Shown: one piece after another, positions 55,907 through 63,425 of the stretch | How the letters are laid out: every line of letters starts with the position of its first letter | How positions within the stretch are numbered: the stretch's first letter is position 1 | Assembly (NCBI GenBank): GCA_013151035.1 | Contig: JAADJB010000040.1 | Span: forward strand, 1 to 64,000 | Reading direction: 5' to 3' | DNA length: 64,000 bases | Source: Gammaproteobacteria bacterium | GTDB lineage: Bacteria; Pseudomonadota; Gammaproteobacteria; JAADJB01 | Translations under genes and position numbers: made by a program | Notes under the pieces: generated by a model | What the model was told of the DNA's origin: nothing | Database searches by the model: none | The model's input: the letters and a program-made list of their open reading frames with translations, nothing else

Positions 55907-56773
55907 ATGAACATGAAAAAAACCGCATTATTTGCAGCCGCACTAACCTTTCTGAGCATCAACTCAGGGGCGTTACAGGCATCACCCGAGGCTGAAATGA
56001 AGGCCTTTCAATCCTATTATCAACAGCGCTTTCCAGATACTACATTCCAGGATTTCAGCAATGGCATCTATGGCATTGATAAGGTAAGACGTGTTGAATG
56101 GGAGTCCATCGAGGAGTTTGCCCCTTATGAGATCGGGCTGGATATCGGCAAAGACTTATTCGAAAAGCCTTTCGCTAATGGTAAGACTTATGCCAGCTGT
56201 TTTCCAAATGGAGGCATTGGTATTCGTCAAAACTATCCCTACTTTGATGCCAAGTCCGGTACCGTACGCACCCTGGAACAGGATATCAACGCTTGTCGCA
56301 GCCACAATGGTGAGAAACCACTGAAGTGGAAGAAAAACAAGATAGCCGCGATCTCTGCCTATATGTCCTATACCTCAAGGGGTAATAAACTGGCTATCAA
56401 GGTGCCTAACGACCCTCGGGCATTGGCTATACTGGAACGAGGCAAACAGAATTTCTTTGCCAAACGTGGTCAGCTCAACATGTCCTGTGCCGATTGCCAT
56501 ATGTATAATGCCGGTAACATGGCTCGCGGTAATCTGCTAAGTCCTGCTCTAGGCAACCTGAGTCATTTCCCTGTTTATCGTAAAAAATGGGAATCCAAAG
56601 GCAAGGGTGATCTGGGCGGTTTTGGTACCGTACATCGTCGCTTTGGTGGCTGTAACAAACAGGTTCGATTCAAACCTCTTAAGGCTCAGAGTGATGAATA
56701 CAAAGCTTTAGAGTATTATCTTACTTACATGAGTAATGGTATTGAGGTTAATGGACCGGGTATGCGCCAGTAA
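55907..56773 (+). CDS. soxA: L-cysteine S-thiosulfotransferase subunit SoxA (monoheme)
   Basis: 288 aa. Signal peptide, then two cytochrome-like domains. Only the second keeps heme ligation: CADCH (Cys194, Cys197, His198) with the axial ligand Cys249 in RFGGCNKQVR. In the first domain, where diheme SoxA proteins have CxxCH, this protein shows lone cysteines (CFPNGG, NACRS). It is thus the monoheme form. Ends ahead of a strong terminator. Confidence 0.93.
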   Translation: MNMKKTALFAAALTFLSINSGALQASPEAEMKAFQSYYQQRFPDTTFQDFSNGIYGIDKVRRVEWESIEEFAPYEIGLDIGKDLFEKPFANGKTYASCFPNGGIGIRQNYPYFDAKSGTVRTLEQDINACRSHNGEKPLKWKKNKIAAISAYMSYTSRGNKLAIKVPNDPRALAILERGKQNFFAKRGQLNMSCADCHMYNAGNMARGNLLSPALGNLSHFPVYRKKWESKGKGDLGGFGTVHRRFGGCNKQVRFKPLKAQSDEYKALEYYLTYMSNGIEVNGPGMRQ

Positions 56774-56793
56774 TCACAAGCATGCCGAGCAAT

Positions 56794-56826
56794 AAAAAAC
56801 CCGGCTCTATGAGTCGGGTTTTTTTT
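56794..56826 (+). terminator. Rho-independent terminator between soxA and soxB
   Basis: Hairpin ACCCGGCTC-TAT-GAGTCGGGT followed by eight T. It would separate soxXYZA from soxB or limit readthrough. Confidence 0.88.
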
Positions 56827-56857
56827 CAACAGGGCAATAATTAACAAGTAGAAGTTT

Positions 56858-58597
56858 ATGAATATTTCACGTCGAGAATTTATCCAGATGCTTGCTGTTG
56901 CAGGCGTATCCACCTTACAACTCGAAGGCTGTAGCACAAACAATGGTAATCGTTTTATGACGAGCGGAAACAATCCCGCCGATCTGTATGAATTACCCGC
57001 ATTTGGCAATGTCTCGATAATGCATTACACCGATTGCCATGCGCAATTAATGCCGATTCACTTTCGTGAACCCAATATTAATCTGGGCATTGGCAGTATG
57101 CGTGGACAACCGCCACATCTAGTGGGAGAAAACCTGCTCAAACACTATGGCATCCGGCCAGGCTCTGCCGAGGCCAATGCCCTGACTTATATTGATTTCA
57201 CTGAGGCATCGAAGAAATTTGGTAAGGTTGGTGGCTTTGCTCATCTATCCAGCCTGGTGAAAAAAATTCGCGCACAACGTCCAAACAGCCTGTTATTGGA
57301 TGGTGGTGATACCTGGCAGGGGTCAGCCACAGCATTATGGACCAACGCACAGGATATGGTTGATGCACAACTGTTACTCGGCGTGGATATAATGACATCG
57401 CACTGGGAGATGACCTTTGGTGCCGAACGTGTGCAGGAAATCATTAATAATGATTTTAAGGGGAAAATCGATTTTGTAGCACAAAATGTCGTTGATAATA
57501 ACTGGGGTGACCCCATATTCAAGCCCTATGTTATTCGTAATATTAACGGCATCCCTACCGCCATTATTGGACAAGCATTCCCCTACACCCCGATTGCCAA
57601 TCCCCGCTATATGATTCCGGACTGGAGTTTTGGTATACAGGATGAAAATATGCAGGCGATGGTTAACAAAGCTCGGGGTGAAGGTGCTCAGGTTGTTGTG
57701 GTGCTATCACATAACGGCATGGATGTTGATTTGAAGATGGCCAGCCGTGTAACGGGTATTGATGCCATCATGGGCGGACATACGCATGATGCCATCCCGT
57801 CACCCACTATTGTTAATAACCTGGGTGGCAAGACACTGGTCACTAATGCCGGTTCAAATGGCAAGTTCCTCGCTGTGCTCGACTTTGATGTAAAAAATGG
57901 TCGTGTACGCGATTTCCGTTATAAACTGCTGCCAGTATTTTCTAACCTGATTGAGGCTGACCCAGAGATGGAGGCGTACATCAACAAGGTTCGCGCACCC
58001 TATCTGGATAATCTGCAACGGGAACTTGCCATCACCGACAGTCTGCTCTACCGTCGTGGAAATTTCAATGGTACCTTTGACCAGCTTATCTGTGATGCAC
58101 TGATCGAGGTTATGGATGCACCGATATCACTCTCACCCGGCTTTCGCTGGGGAGTGAGTGTATTACCCGGTGAACCCATTACCTTCGAACAGGTGATGAG
58201 TCAAACCGCTATCACCTATCCAACCGTATCCGTTGACATGGTTACGGGTGGACGCATCAAGGAAGTTCTGGAAGATGTCGCCGACAACCTGTTTAATATA
58301 GATCCCTACTACCAACAAGGCGGTGATATGGTGCGCGTTGGCGGTCTACGCTACAGCATTAATCCACATAAAAAGATTGGTCAACGCATCAATGATATGG
58401 AACTCAATGGACAAGCACTGATGCCCAACAAGGAATATCCAGTAGCCGGCTGGGCCAGTGTTGGTCGGCCACTAGAGGGTAGACCAGTATGGGATGTTGT
58501 TGAAGAATACCTAACCAGTAAGAAAACCATTCGCATTGATCATCTGAACACACCCAAGATTATTGGTGTTAAGGGTAATCCCGGGTATAAGCCATAA
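56858..58597 (+). CDS. soxB: Thiosulfohydrolase SoxB
   Basis: 579 aa, manganese-dependent 5'-nucleotidase fold enzyme that releases sulfate from SoxY-bound thiosulfonate. Tat-like leader SRREFIQMLAVAGV, then HYTDCHAQLMPIHFREP, GGDTWQGSATALWT, VVVLSHNGMDVDLKMA and GGHTHDAIPSP. It follows the terminator after soxA by 30 bp, so either readthrough or its own promoter serves it. No soxCD is found in the window. Confidence 0.96.
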   Translation: MNISRREFIQMLAVAGVSTLQLEGCSTNNGNRFMTSGNNPADLYELPAFGNVSIMHYTDCHAQLMPIHFREPNINLGIGSMRGQPPHLVGENLLKHYGIRPGSAEANALTYIDFTEASKKFGKVGGFAHLSSLVKKIRAQRPNSLLLDGGDTWQGSATALWTNAQDMVDAQLLLGVDIMTSHWEMTFGAERVQEIINNDFKGKIDFVAQNVVDNNWGDPIFKPYVIRNINGIPTAIIGQAFPYTPIANPRYMIPDWSFGIQDENMQAMVNKARGEGAQVVVVLSHNGMDVDLKMASRVTGIDAIMGGHTHDAIPSPTIVNNLGGKTLVTNAGSNGKFLAVLDFDVKNGRVRDFRYKLLPVFSNLIEADPEMEAYINKVRAPYLDNLQRELAITDSLLYRRGNFNGTFDQLICDALIEVMDAPISLSPGFRWGVSVLPGEPITFEQVMSQTAITYPTVSVDMVTGGRIKEVLEDVADNLFNIDPYYQQGGDMVRVGGLRYSINPHKKIGQRINDMELNGQALMPNKEYPVAGWASVGRPLEGRPVWDVVEEYLTSKKTIRIDHLNTPKIIGVKGNPGYKP

Positions 58598-58604
58598 ATT
58601 CAAT

Positions 58605-58655
58605 GGTGCGTGGTATGCACCCTACCTTTCATCGGTAGGGTGCGCATTGCGCACC
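58605..58655. repeat. Two palindromic repeats, opposite orientation, after soxB
   Basis: Copies at 58605-58626 and 58634-58655 face each other between the convergent soxB and doxX genes and together form a long hairpin. Confidence 0.8.
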
Positions 58656-58663
58656 GCAAATCT

Positions 58664-59263
58664 CTACGCGCCAACCATCTTGCGATGCACCCAATAATCT
58701 ACACTCAAATAACGCCCCGCACCAACAAAAAACAACACCAATAACATAATAAAATAGGTGGCGGCAAACTCAATCCCGTTATTCAACATGGCAAGACTAC
58801 CATGCTCAGTCAGCCACTCATAATTCCCGTATTCCTGCAGGATCTCTCTGGCACTTTGCAACCGCTCCATCGCAGCAACACTCCGATCATTAGCAAATAA
58901 ACTCCCAGTACCCTCCGCAATGGCAAGCCAGCCATGCTGCCAATGCACTGTTAATGCAGCAACCACCATCGTCGCCATTAATGGTACCGATATATAACGC
59001 ACACCCAGACCCAGTAAAAGTAATACCGAACCCACAATCTCGGTTGATGTTGCCAGCCATGCCATCAGTTCTGGAAAAGGTAGTCCCAGCCCCCAATCAG
59101 GATTAGCAAACCACTCAATCGTACCCTCCATATGAGTAATTTTATTCGTACCCGCCATCCAGAATATCGGAGCCAGATAAAGCCGTAACAACAAGGGTGC
59201 AATAAAATCCATACTACGAGTCAGGTTTAACCAACCGTGTATCCTGAGTAACATCATCTTCAT
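58664..59263 (-). CDS. DoxX-family membrane protein, probable HvfX-like partner of the RiPP operon
   Basis: 199 aa with four membrane segments (PLLLRLYLAPIFWMAG, MAWLATSTEIVGSVLLLLGLGVRYISVPLMATMVVAALTVHW and a C-terminal FAATYFIMLLVLFFVGAG). A long loop (GWLAIAEGTGSLFANDRS...) between segments is typical of DoxX proteins found beside DUF692 genes. Those are thought to help copper handling or maturation in HvfABC-type systems. It is divergent from the sigma-factor operon across about 270 bp of repeats, which fits joint control. Function inferred from context. Confidence 0.7.
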   Translation of the reverse strand: MKMMLLRIHGWLNLTRSMDFIAPLLLRLYLAPIFWMAGTNKITHMEGTIEWFANPDWGLGLPFPELMAWLATSTEIVGSVLLLLGLGVRYISVPLMATMVVAALTVHWQHGWLAIAEGTGSLFANDRSVAAMERLQSAREILQEYGNYEWLTEHGSLAMLNNGIEFAATYFIMLLVLFFVGAGRYLSVDYWVHRKMVGA

Positions 59264-59284
59264 TATTTATTCTCCTTAAATATG

Positions 59285-59450
59285 TAGGGTGCGTACTATT
59301 TATAGTTAGTCCTTTTACATGGAAAAACCTGACAGAAATAATTGCATTCTTTGACTCATTTAGATTTATTTGGTGCGCACTGCGCACCCTACCACTTAAT
59401 AGGTAGGGTGCGTACCACGCACCAATATCCCTGGTAGGGTACCACTCACC
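59285..59450. repeat. Cluster of palindromic repeats in the doxX-sigma divergent region
   Basis: Half copy at 59285-59296, full copies at 59372-59393 and 59402-59423 facing each other, degenerate copy at 59433-59450. The 269-bp gap 59264-59532 must also hold the promoters of both genes; I could not place them with confidence. Confidence 0.75.
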
Positions 59451-59532
59451 AATGCCCTGTTATAGATTGATATATACGAGACATCTAGACTTTGTTAGGC
59501 TAAACACATCATTCAATACTTACCTCGCTATA

Positions 59533-60114
59533 ATGGAACAACATAGCCCAACTGATAACAGAAGTCACCCCGCCAACACCTGGCTGGATGAACACGGCGA
59601 TGTGCTTTATCGCTTTGCCCTATTACGACTGGGTAATCCACATCTGGCCGAAGAGGCAGTACAGGAAACCCTGGTTGCAGCCCTGCAAGGCTGGAGTAAA
59701 TTTAGTGGTCGAGCCTCGGTACGCACCTGGCTAACCGGCATCCTCAAAAACAAGATTATTGATCACTTTCGTCGCTCCCAACGTGAGGTCCCTTTGCCTG
59801 ATGACTGGTACGACAATGATCCCTTTAGCGATCACTTTGTCGATGAGGGGCATTGGAGCTTTACCTTAAAGGACTGGGGAAAGCCTGAATCCATGTTAGA
59901 ACAGGGAGAATTCTGGCGCGTATTACAAGAATGCCTGGATAAAATTCCACCGCGCCTGCGCCATGCTTTTTTAATGCGCGAGGTAATGGAGGAAAAAAGT
60001 GAAAAAGTGTGTCAGGATCTTGATATTAGCCCGACCAACCTATGGACTATGCTTTACCGTGCCCGTATGGGACTTCGGAAGTGCTTTGAAAAAACAGGAG
60101 TTAAACCATCCTAA
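59533..60114 (+). CDS. ECF-type RNA polymerase sigma factor
   Basis: 193 aa from ATG 59533 (MEQHSPTDN); the start is uncertain because no clear Shine-Dalgarno is seen, and an in-frame ATG exists at 59452. Sigma-2 region: WLDEHGDVLYRFALLRLGNPHLAEEAVQETLVAAL, then RTWLTGILKNKIIDHFR. Sigma-4 region: IPPRLRHAFLMREVMEEKSEKVCQDLDISPTNLWTMLYRARMGLRKCF. It is translationally linked to the zinc anti-sigma gene and upstream of the peptide/MNIO genes it probably controls. Confidence 0.85.
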   Translation: MEQHSPTDNRSHPANTWLDEHGDVLYRFALLRLGNPHLAEEAVQETLVAALQGWSKFSGRASVRTWLTGILKNKIIDHFRRSQREVPLPDDWYDNDPFSDHFVDEGHWSFTLKDWGKPESMLEQGEFWRVLQECLDKIPPRLRHAFLMREVMEEKSEKVCQDLDISPTNLWTMLYRARMGLRKCFEKTGVKPS

Positions 60115-60365
60115 GTTGTAAACAAGCGAGCTATTTAATATCCAGACATCAAGATCAACCGTTACGTTGGCGTGATCGTCTGGGTTTACGCATTCATTTA
60201 TGGATGTGTACTAATTGTCGCCGTTTTGAGCAACAGATTGGATTTTTAACTCACGCCATGCACCATTTATCTCGTCAAACACTGGATAACAAGGATACAG
60301 AAGGCGGACTTTCTGAACAAACACGAAAACGTATACAACATAATATAGAATCATATAAACCATAA
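60108..60365 (+). CDS. Zinc-binding anti-sigma factor with probable ATC start
   Basis: An 85-residue frame (ILSCKQASYLISRHQDQPLRWRD...) directly follows the sigma gene. It contains HLWMCTNC, the H-x3-C-x2-C motif of ZAS/zf-HC2 anti-sigma factors, with another Cys at position 4. There is no ATG, GTG or TTG before Met35. An in-frame TAA at 60102-60104 limits the start to ATC 60108 (or CTA 60111). AGGAG at 60097-60101 lies six bases before the ATC, good for initiation, and the frame overlaps the sigma stop by 7 bp. No membrane segment. Probably senses metal or redox through its Cys/His cluster (inference). Confidence 0.7.
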   Translation: MLSCKQASYLISRHQDQPLRWRDRLGLRIHLWMCTNCRRFEQQIGFLTHAMHHLSRQTLDNKDTEGGLSEQTRKRIQHNIESYKP

Positions 60366-60389
60366 AGACCTTAACCACGGAGTAATCAA

Positions 60390-60842
60390 ATGAAAAAATT
60401 AACAACCCTATCACTCGCACTAACCGCAGTTATCAGCATGACCCCTGCACTTGCCAGTGAAAACCCATTTTCAGCCAATGTCATGGCATCAGGCTACCAG
60501 GTCGCATCCGCTGATGACAAATCAGCCGAAGGCAAATGTGGTGAAGCCAAGTGTGGCGGTAACATGAAGATGAAAATGGACAAGAGCAAGATGAAAGAAG
60601 GTAAGTGCGGCGGCAGCATGAAAATGGATATGGACAAGAGCAAGATGAAAGAAGGTAAGTGTGGCGGCAGCATGAAAATGGATATGGACAAGAGCAAGAT
60701 GAAGGAAGGCAAGTGCGGCGGCAGCATGAAAATGGATATGGACAAAAGCAAGATGAAGGAAGGCAAGTGTGGCGGCAGCATGAAGATGGATATGGACAAG
60801 AAAAAAGATAAAATGAAAGAAGGCAAGTGTGGCGGCATGTAG
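60390..60842 (+). CDS. HvfA/bufferin-like RiPP precursor with tandem EGKCG repeats
   Basis: 150 aa. Sec signal peptide (cleaved near ALA at 22), a short spacer, then a Lys/Met/Gly/Cys-rich region. It has seven cysteines: six in EGKCG and one in EAKCG. Five of them are in near-identical 18-residue units KMKEGKCGGSMKMDMDKS (54-bp tandem repeats). EGKCG is the motif modified by MNIO enzymes in Haemophilus HvfA; modified peptides bind copper (established for HvfABC and bufferins). The Met/Asp blocks could add metal ligands. GGAG precedes the ATG. No homology to other proteins seen. Confidence 0.85.
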   Translation: MKKLTTLSLALTAVISMTPALASENPFSANVMASGYQVASADDKSAEGKCGEAKCGGNMKMKMDKSKMKEGKCGGSMKMDMDKSKMKEGKCGGSMKMDMDKSKMKEGKCGGSMKMDMDKSKMKEGKCGGSMKMDMDKKKDKMKEGKCGGM

Positions 60843-60851
60843 GCAAGAGAG

Positions 60852-61691
60852 ATGAATGCTGTCCTGCAAGGTGCGGGTCTGGGTCTACGACGTGAACTTA
60901 TTAATGACCTGAGCCGCACAATTCCGGATGCTATCCAGTTCTTCGAGCTTGCACCCGAGAACTGGATGGAGGTCGGTGGTCAATGGCGTAAGCAATTACG
61001 CCATTTCTCTACCGAACGTCCTGTCGTGGCACATGGCTTGTCGTTGTCACTCGGTAGCCTGGATCCACTGGACGAGGGGTTTGTACAACGCATCGGGCAC
61101 TTTCTGGATGAATACAATATCCCCCTATACACCGAACACCTGTCATGGTGTAGCGATGAAGGACACCTGTACGACCTGTTACCCATTCCATTTACCTTCG
61201 ATGCAGTCGAGCATGTAGCCAGCCGCATTCGACGCGTACAAGAGATCCTGCAACGCCGTATCGCGATTGAAAATGCCTCTTACTATGTCGCACCACCAAT
61301 GGCTGAGATGAGCGAGGCTGAATTCATCTGTGCTGTACTGAAGGCGGCTGATTGCGATTTACATCTTGATGTGAATAACATCTATGTCAACAGCATCAAT
61401 TTTAACTTTGATCCACACCCGTTTATCCAGCAACTCCCGGCTGAACGAGTCGTCTATATGCACATGGCAGGGCACTATCAAAAGAGCCAAGACCTGATTA
61501 TTGATACCCACGGAGCCGATGTTATTGAATCGGTGTGGGAACTATTGGCCTATACCTATCAACAGATCGGAATACACCCTACACTGTTGGAACGCGATTT
61601 CAACATCCCGCCATTATCCACCCTGTTACCCGAGGTAGAACGTATTGCCCAATTACAAATAGAAGCAGGAAAACATGAACAAGTCGCCTGA
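60852..61691 (+). CDS. DUF692/MNIO-family peptide-modifying enzyme, HvfB/BufB-like
   Basis: 279 aa TIM-barrel enzyme of the multinuclear non-heme iron oxidative family. Iron-ligand segments are visible: VAHGLSLSLGS, YTEHLSW, IAIENASYYVAP, LHLDVNNIYVN and HMAGHYQ, ending with the LLERDFNIPP motif. It would oxidise the EGKCG cysteines of the peptide encoded 9 bp upstream, giving oxazolone/thioamide or thiooxazole groups. AGAGAG precedes the ATG; the stop overlaps the next gene by 17 bp. Confidence 0.9.
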   Translation: MNAVLQGAGLGLRRELINDLSRTIPDAIQFFELAPENWMEVGGQWRKQLRHFSTERPVVAHGLSLSLGSLDPLDEGFVQRIGHFLDEYNIPLYTEHLSWCSDEGHLYDLLPIPFTFDAVEHVASRIRRVQEILQRRIAIENASYYVAPPMAEMSEAEFICAVLKAADCDLHLDVNNIYVNSINFNFDPHPFIQQLPAERVVYMHMAGHYQKSQDLIIDTHGADVIESVWELLAYTYQQIGIHPTLLERDFNIPPLSTLLPEVERIAQLQIEAGKHEQVA

Positions 61692-62442
61692 GCGAAAAAG
61701 CTATCAGGACTACCAACACCAGTTCGCCCAGCATCTACGTAACTCCGCAGTAAATCCCGCTCCTGAAGGTGCAGACCCACAACGTATGCAAGTTTACGAA
61801 GATCTAATCTTTAATAACTTCAACAGCTTTCTACTTAACTGCTTCCCCATTACCCATGACATTCTGGGTAACAAAGCATGGCACAAGCTGACTAAACAGG
61901 GCTTTGCCGAGAGTCATAGCCCCAGCCCCTTGTTTCGTGATATTCCCGCAACATTTCTTGCATGGCTACAAACAAAAACAACCGAACCCTTGCCGCAATA
62001 CCCCTGGCTGTATGAGTTTATGCACTATGAATGGATCGAACTCAGCGTAAAAACGGATACGGCTGATCTGGATACCGTAGTCATACCGGATCAATCAGGT
62101 GATCGACTTGATAATAAATTAGTGCTCAATCCCACCGCACAACTCGCCTGTTATCATTGGCCGGTACACACCATCAGCCCAGATAATTCGACACCAGTGA
62201 TATCGGAACAAGCTCATTGTTTTCTGATCTTTCGTAAGAAAGACGACGAGGTACACTTTATCGAAGTCAACCCTCTTACCGCACAACTCATTCAACAACT
62301 ACAGGAATCATCAGAGCAGCCATTAAGACAGATACTAAAAAAACTAGCCAACACAGTCTATCAAGGTTCTGTTCAAGATCTGGAAACGGCTATCCCGCCA
62401 TTGCTAACAAGTCTACAACAACAAGAGCTTATCCTGAGCTGA
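61675..62442 (+). CDS. DUF2063 partner protein, HvfC/BufC-like
   Basis: 255 aa. N-terminal DUF2063 (QDYQHQFAQHLR, RMQVYEDLIFNNFNSFLLNCFPITHDILG, WLYEFMHYEWIEL) and a C-terminal domain with RKKDDEVHFIEVNPLTAQLIQQL. Its homologues bind the precursor and MNIO protein and are needed for modification. Overlap with the MNIO gene implies stoichiometric expression. Confidence 0.88.
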   Translation: MNKSPERKSYQDYQHQFAQHLRNSAVNPAPEGADPQRMQVYEDLIFNNFNSFLLNCFPITHDILGNKAWHKLTKQGFAESHSPSPLFRDIPATFLAWLQTKTTEPLPQYPWLYEFMHYEWIELSVKTDTADLDTVVIPDQSGDRLDNKLVLNPTAQLACYHWPVHTISPDNSTPVISEQAHCFLIFRKKDDEVHFIEVNPLTAQLIQQLQESSEQPLRQILKKLANTVYQGSVQDLETAIPPLLTSLQQQELILS

Positions 62443-62507: not shown

Positions 62508-63389
62508 TCAAAGATCCAGAATGGATAAATCCAGATGCCCATCCTTCACCGGAGGACACCAAAAATAGCTACCACTCAAGGGCTGAGTGAAATCAAACAG
62601 CGCATCAACCACACCATCATCCTGCCCAATCATACGATTTAATTGTGCCTCAAAGGCATCCAACGTCTTGCCAAAGGCAACAAAATTCAGACCTGCAGAC
62701 ATCGCATCAGACCAAGGCATTGAACGACGCAACAAAAAAGCCTCTGGATCAAAATCTTCTTGCGCCGTACGCTTAACATGTGCTGATACCGGAGCATCAT
62801 CAATCTCTTCATTATCGCTAATCTGTCGACCAACACTATTATCCTGTTGCTCCACCGTCATCAAATCAAAGACATCAAAATCATGCAGCCATTGTTGCAC
62901 CGCAACAAAACTCGAACCATCAAGTCCCTCACCTTGCCCCTGCACCAGTGCAGCATTAATCGCATCCTCACCCTGAGGGTTTTCAGTGCCATCCTCGTAG
63001 CCTGTCATATCATTTCCTGTTTTATACTGAAATGAATCAATAACATTATCGAGACTAAATGCGGGATAGAGCAGCGCCTCAATTTTTCGTGAACGATGAT
63101 ACAGATCACCCCGATCAGTACCCCGCAACCAGCACCAGAGTGCCGCAGGTGTAGATGGAATATCAATGCCACTGCCGGTAAGTACCGGGAATGAACGTAG
63201 ACCAGGGATCTCTTTATCCACTGCCTTTATCAGAGAGAGCCCCAGCCCAACAACCGTTTGTTGCAGACCATCCATCTGTGCCAATGCCCGCAGGCTATCT
63301 GACAACCCCTCGCTGGAACGAATAGAAAAAACTAAATACCGCGCTTGCTCGGTTAGCGGTGCAAGAATACCTGACTGAGATAAATTCAT
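62508..63389 (-). CDS. Dyp-type heme peroxidase
   Basis: 293 aa from ATG 63389 (MNLSQSGILAPL; GGAGG just ahead); ATG 63401 would add four residues. Distal-site motif GYEDGTENP (GxxDG type), proximal heme His in APVSAHVKRTAQ, and FVAFGKTLDAFEAQLNRM and FDFTQPLSGSYFWCPP as in the YfeX group. No signal peptide. It converges on the RiPP operon with a 65-bp gap; a functional link is not shown. Confidence 0.92.
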   Translation of the reverse strand: MNLSQSGILAPLTEQARYLVFSIRSSEGLSDSLRALAQMDGLQQTVVGLGLSLIKAVDKEIPGLRSFPVLTGSGIDIPSTPAALWCWLRGTDRGDLYHRSRKIEALLYPAFSLDNVIDSFQYKTGNDMTGYEDGTENPQGEDAINAALVQGQGEGLDGSSFVAVQQWLHDFDVFDLMTVEQQDNSVGRQISDNEEIDDAPVSAHVKRTAQEDFDPEAFLLRRSMPWSDAMSAGLNFVAFGKTLDAFEAQLNRMIGQDDGVVDALFDFTQPLSGSYFWCPPVKDGHLDLSILDL

Positions 63390-63425
63390 TACTTCCTCCA
63401 TATTATTGCTGTCCCGCTAACTCAA

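Follow-up and report, generated by a model that had tools for sequence, protein, structure and literature searches.

The window (the whole stretch analysed, 64,000 nucleotides, contig JAADJB010000040.1 of a gammaproteobacterium, assembly GCA_013151035.1) carries at 58664-62442 a gene cluster predicted to produce an HvfA-type modified peptide of the oxazolin/captophorin group. The following features were found.

58664..59263, minus strand: doxX/hvfX, DoxX-like membrane protein (NCBIfam NF050144 HvfX, Pfam DoxX), divergent from the operon.
59533..60114, plus strand: extracytoplasmic function (ECF) sigma factor, TIGR02943 family; Sigma70_r2 and r4_2 above cut-off.
60108..60365, plus strand: zinc-finger anti-sigma factor of the zinc-binding anti-sigma (ZAS) type (zf-HC2, NF052368, ZAS motif), probably starting at an ATC that overlaps the ECF stop codon.
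60390..60842, plus strand: oxazolin/HvfA-family precursor, 150 amino acids (NF050137), with Sec signal peptide, NPF..GY leader and seven E[G/A]KCG motifs.
60528..60837, plus strand: core region of the precursor, an EGKCG/EAKCG doublet followed by five spaced EGKCG (Tandem Repeats Finder, unit alignment).
60852..61691, plus strand: hvfB-type multinuclear non-haem iron-dependent oxidative enzyme (MNIO, DUF692), predicted installer of the Cys modification (NF003818, PF05114, relative of 3BWW, ligand conservation).
61675..62442, plus strand: hvfC-type DUF2063/PME1 partner protein with RiPP recognition element (RRE; RiPP, ribosomally synthesised and post-translationally modified peptide) (NF050145, DUF2063, NGO1945_C, relative of 3DEE).

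All the genes named by a sequence-only reading of this DNA lie where it placed them: doxX is divergent and the five others run head-to-tail. The ZAS and precursor genes are separated by 24 bp and the precursor and MNIO genes by 9 bp; the MNIO and DUF2063 genes overlap by 17 bp.

All seven Cys of the precursor lie in E[G/A]KCG motifs (six EGKCG, one EAKCG). A tandem repeat of 54-bp period (5.4 copies, score 424, far above chance; Tandem Repeats Finder) encodes units of 18 amino acids rich in Met, Lys and Asp; the unit preceding the last motif is 2 amino acids longer. The sequence-only reading, which had placed five motifs in such units, was thus accurate on the composition of the peptide. Compared in pairs, the three EGKCG units of identical length (amino acids 70-123) show 8 synonymous differences and no nonsynonymous one, where the expected synonymous fraction is 0.19; just four codon positions enter this comparison. 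Because the units differ only synonymously, selection probably maintains the repeat at the amino-acid level. The signal peptide was assigned by inspection only. It is directly followed by an NPF...GY leader motif (amino acids 25-40), at which the DUF2063 partner may dock; among 84 relatives compared, this motif was common to the precursors of Pseudomonadota and was not found in those of Campylobacterota. An AlphaFold2 model of the precursor, made without an alignment, has a mean pLDDT (predicted local distance difference test) of 51 and a weak strand periodicity, and is not taken as evidence for anything.

The precursor scores above the cut-off of the HvfA-family repeat domain (NF050137, 24.9 bits, cut-off 19.5) and below that of the HvfA equivalog (NF050188, 51 bits, cut-off 95): it belongs to the wider family and not to the HvfA equivalog. 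The MNIO matches the HvfB family (NF003818, 416.4 bits, cut-off 360) and PF05114 (345.1 bits, cut-off 25); it does not belong to the methanobactin (MbnABC) systems (MbnB equivalog, 29.4 bits, cut-off 325). The DUF2063 protein matches the HvfC family (NF050145, 243.1 bits, cut-off 142) and the Pfam families DUF2063 (74.4 bits, cut-off 27.2) and NGO1945_C (79.5 bits, cut-off 27), and the DoxX protein matches the HvfX family (NF050144, 240.1 bits, cut-off 80) and Pfam DoxX (86.1 bits, cut-off 23.6). The nearest solved relatives are 3BWW for the MNIO and 3DEE for the DUF2063 protein. The metal-ligand positions of the MNIO are kept, as the iron-ligand check proposed earlier required: H61, H96, E140, D173, N175, H204, D218, H220 and E247 are at least 99% conserved among 86 MNIOs. 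The apparent counterparts of N175, D218 and H220 in HvfB are its site-3 residues N175, D242 and H244, in a mapping made through the 3BWW alignment and not the HvfB sequence itself. Alanine substitutions of these three HvfB residues abolish activity (PMC13419390).

The sigma factor scores 192.8 bits against TIGR02943 (cut-off 162.2). An alternative ATG at 59452 would give a longer open reading frame. Within the genome, the ECF paralogue nearest to this factor is only distantly related (26% identity). The small protein encoded beside it scores 28.4 bits against zf-HC2 (cut-off 22.2) and 73.8 bits against NF052368 antisigmaE (cut-off 50). Its motif, C4-X25-H-X3-C-X2-C, fits the ZAS consensus C/H-X23-26-H-X3-C-X2-C. 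No ATG, GTG or TTG start is present in its reading frame, which reads ACC ATC CTA AGT TGT after an in-frame TAA. AGGAG lies 7 nt before ATC (60108-60110), and ATC-CTAA overlaps the sigma stop codon. ATC is the probable start codon, and the start is likely to be weak and translationally coupled; a base-calling error is possible. At the corresponding place, related loci carry ATG (L063 for example), GTG or, in L080, ATA.

The link of the regulators to the operon, proposed from the sequence, recurs elsewhere: precursor, MNIO and DUF2063 genes are directly preceded by ECF and ZAS genes on the same strand in 23 of 84 loci (the window and 22 others), a proportion that is no estimate for the family at large since loci were sampled by similarity to the MNIO of the window. 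One of the 23 (L082) has no recognised precursor. Most of these loci are from Thiobacillus/Hydrogenophilales and other Betaproteobacteria, where several (L055, L063, L070, L073 and others) have a five-gene order identical to that of the window; they differ in their precursor spacers, some with EF-hand-like inserts, and in that no divergent DoxX gene was seen in the fetched flanks. In the MNIO tree, the window protein joins the betaproteobacterial ECF-ZAS operon clade (support 98/90), apart from the other relatives of its class that were sampled; L001 is a long branch whose exact placement is unsure. Recent import of the operon was considered and set aside: base composition shows no sign of it (GC 0.466 for the operon, 0.474 for the window), even though the MNIO clusters among betaproteobacterial sequences.

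The precursor was compared with 84 distinct precursors from related loci, having the same NPF..GY leader. Their number of Cys has a median of 6 and a range of 2-14 (ten with 7, 26 with more). Published counts are 6 for HvfA (PMC13419390), 7 for FonA (PMC12668002), 5 to 8 for MmrA (PMC12538549) and up to 58 (PMC12452194). By these counts the repeat number is ordinary, and seven Cys, which had been called unusual and read as a high-capacity variant, are mid-range and lend no support to that label. The Met content ranks first of 84 (22 of 126 mature residues, 17.5%; next, 13.3%), and a layout like this one, with a doublet ahead of five singles, belongs to the minority (at most one doublet with at least five Cys in 16 of 84). 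The Met-rich, single-motif, 18-residue repeat is a mildly distinctive feature of an otherwise ordinary member of a known gene set. Precursor L115/L144 (genome G121, another family) has this design too, with spaced single EGKCG in Met-rich repeats (KMKEGKCGAGMKMKSES) after a doublet; it differs by its 17-amino-acid units and 6 Cys, and no ECF/ZAS gene was found nearby. EF-hand-like segments (DxNxDGxxxxxE) occur between or after EGKCG in precursors L050, L054, L063, L074, L087 and others, the Sec leader being kept; these possibly differ from the transmembrane EF-hand fusions of PMC12452194.

Three characterised systems resemble the window. Oxazolin (HvfABCX, nontypeable Haemophilus influenzae) shares a signal-peptide EGKCG precursor, HvfB MNIO, HvfC, HvfX DoxX and ECF/ZAS control (PMC13419390, PMC7907618). 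It differs in that the 6 Cys of HvfA sit in three AEGKCGEGKCG doublets where the window has 18-amino-acid Met-rich single-motif repeats, and in that rpoE2/hrsE lie near msrAB, whereas the window has its sigma/anti-sigma genes inside the operon and a divergent doxX. Fontiphorin (FonABC, Fontimonas thermophila; captophorin class) shares EGKCG/EAKCG repeats, seven sites, an MNIO and PME1 (DUF2063); its described fragments carry two or three sites each, whereas the sites of the window are mostly spaced singles (PMC12668002). Bulbicupramide (MmrABC, Microbulbifer) shares EGKCG repeats, five to eight Cys, an MNIO and DUF2063, and the Mmr product binds copper; unlike the window, no sigma or DoxX gene is mentioned in the part of the text searched (PMC12538549). 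HvfBC and FonBC turn the Cys of EGKCG into copper-binding 5-thiooxazoles, which revises the oxazolone/thioamide assignment (PMC12668002, PMC13419390). RpoE2, an ECF factor, and the ZAS anti-sigma HrsE control doxX/periplasmic peptide/COG3220/DUF2063 genes of H. influenzae under hypochlorite (PMC7907618); by domain content, these are the hvf genes.

The cluster is thus very probably an oxazolin/captophorin (HvfA-type) RiPP operon working as follows; its Cys modification, copper binding and stress induction would be those of the characterised relatives. The ZAS anti-sigma would hold the ECF factor and release it under envelope thiol/oxidative or metal stress. The operon, possibly also the divergent doxX, would then be transcribed. 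The DUF2063 partner would bind the precursor, probably via the signal-peptide/NPF..GY leader, and the diiron MNIO would turn the Cys of each EGKCG into a 5-thiooxazole, a four-electron oxidation, before export. After Sec export, the intact repeat polypeptide would bind and buffer periplasmic Cu(I), possibly assisted by the Met-rich spacers. Because the H. influenzae hvf ECF/ZAS pair responds to hypochlorite (PMC7907618), an oxidative/thiol inducer is as likely as copper. A second MNIO or precursor was not found in the genome (single copy of each), where two Cu-type P-type ATPase genes are over cut-off; copper handling would therefore have this operon as one of its layers. The window offers a clear case of a captophorin operon with its own ECF/ZAS regulator, an arrangement common to many Betaproteobacteria, Thiobacillus in particular; this suggests that stress-released sigma control, known in H. 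influenzae, is a wider mode for this class of copper-binding RiPPs.

Several results weigh against the proposed operon function. A two-motif truncated substrate was modified by FonBC in vitro and a one-motif substrate was not (PMC12668002), whereas five of the seven sites in the window are spaced singles. The Microbulbifer homologue binds copper, yet the proteins were undetected with or without added copper and the authors are hesitant on copper protection (PMC12538549). Dyad enumeration and upstream comparison for a shared ECF promoter gave motifs only in one closely related Thiobacillus group, and a scan for sigma-70-type promoters was at chance level; no common ECF promoter emerged convincingly.

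The peptide could instead be primarily a scavenger of oxidative/hypochlorous stress or a redox buffer, its Met spacers and modified Cys absorbing envelope oxidants and copper binding being secondary. This is possible, though unlikely: in H. influenzae, hypochlorite acts through ECF/ZAS on the hvf operon along with Met-sulfoxide repair genes (PMC7907618), the Met content heads the 84 relatives and copper protection is unproven in Microbulbifer (PMC12538549), but copper is bound by those EGKCG products that have been characterised (oxazolin, fontiphorin, bulbicupramide), and bufferins give protection from it (PMC12452194). Since the family does not have Met-rich spacers in general, its conserved function does not depend on them. 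A metal or oxidant role of these spacers is speculative. It is proposed only tentatively, and is rather improbable, that the Met/Lys/Asp spacer (SMKMDMDKSKMK) serves as a second functional module (thiooxazole and Met-thioether alternating as a mixed-ligand Cu(I) or oxidant sink) and that the cognate MNIO is efficient on single EGKCG sites at 18-residue spacing instead of on doublets. The regularity of the single-site repeat makes it well suited as a substrate with which to ask if the MNIO requires motif doublets.

A bufferin type 1 or 2 operon, with MNIO, DUF2063 and DoxX genes in common, is extremely improbable. The Pfam scan found neither DUF2282 nor any other match in the peptide, and the MNIO is below the BufB cut-off (271.6 bits, cut-off 310) while above that of the HvfB family. 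Because of the BufB score, the cluster is placed in the HvfA/oxazolin (EGKCG) branch, which the profiles support; the bufferin half of the earlier HvfABC/bufferin-type label is refuted at the level of profile assignment. A functional tie of the doxX-sigma-precursor cluster to thiosulfate oxidation is very unlikely. In its favour, soxB ends 66 bp before doxX and many same-order loci are from Thiobacillus/Hydrogenophilales. However, doxX is convergent with the sox genes, the flanks fetched for related loci yielded no SoxA/SoxB homologue, those of the related ECF-ZAS loci show neither sox linkage nor a divergent doxX, and the same precursor/MNIO/DUF2063 genes also occur in nitrifiers and other bacteria.

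The soxA and soxB genes (55907-58597, directly upstream of doxX) support a thiosulfate-oxidising host, in keeping with the sulfur oxidiser proposed earlier. On the other side, a Dyp-type peroxidase gene (62508-63401) is convergent with the operon; an oxidative-stress link is possible. Palindromes resembling repetitive extragenic palindromic (REP) sequences, built around GGTAGGGTGCG, lie at 58604-58655, 59279-59296, 59370-59425 and further sites. On either side of doxX lies one arm of a 24-nt inverted pair, 96% complementary. The window contains 11 copies of GTAGGGTGCG, where 0.06 would be expected, and the genome has 239 of GGTAGGGTGCG against 2 for a control; the genome also encodes Y1-type transposases, a class including REP-associated ones.

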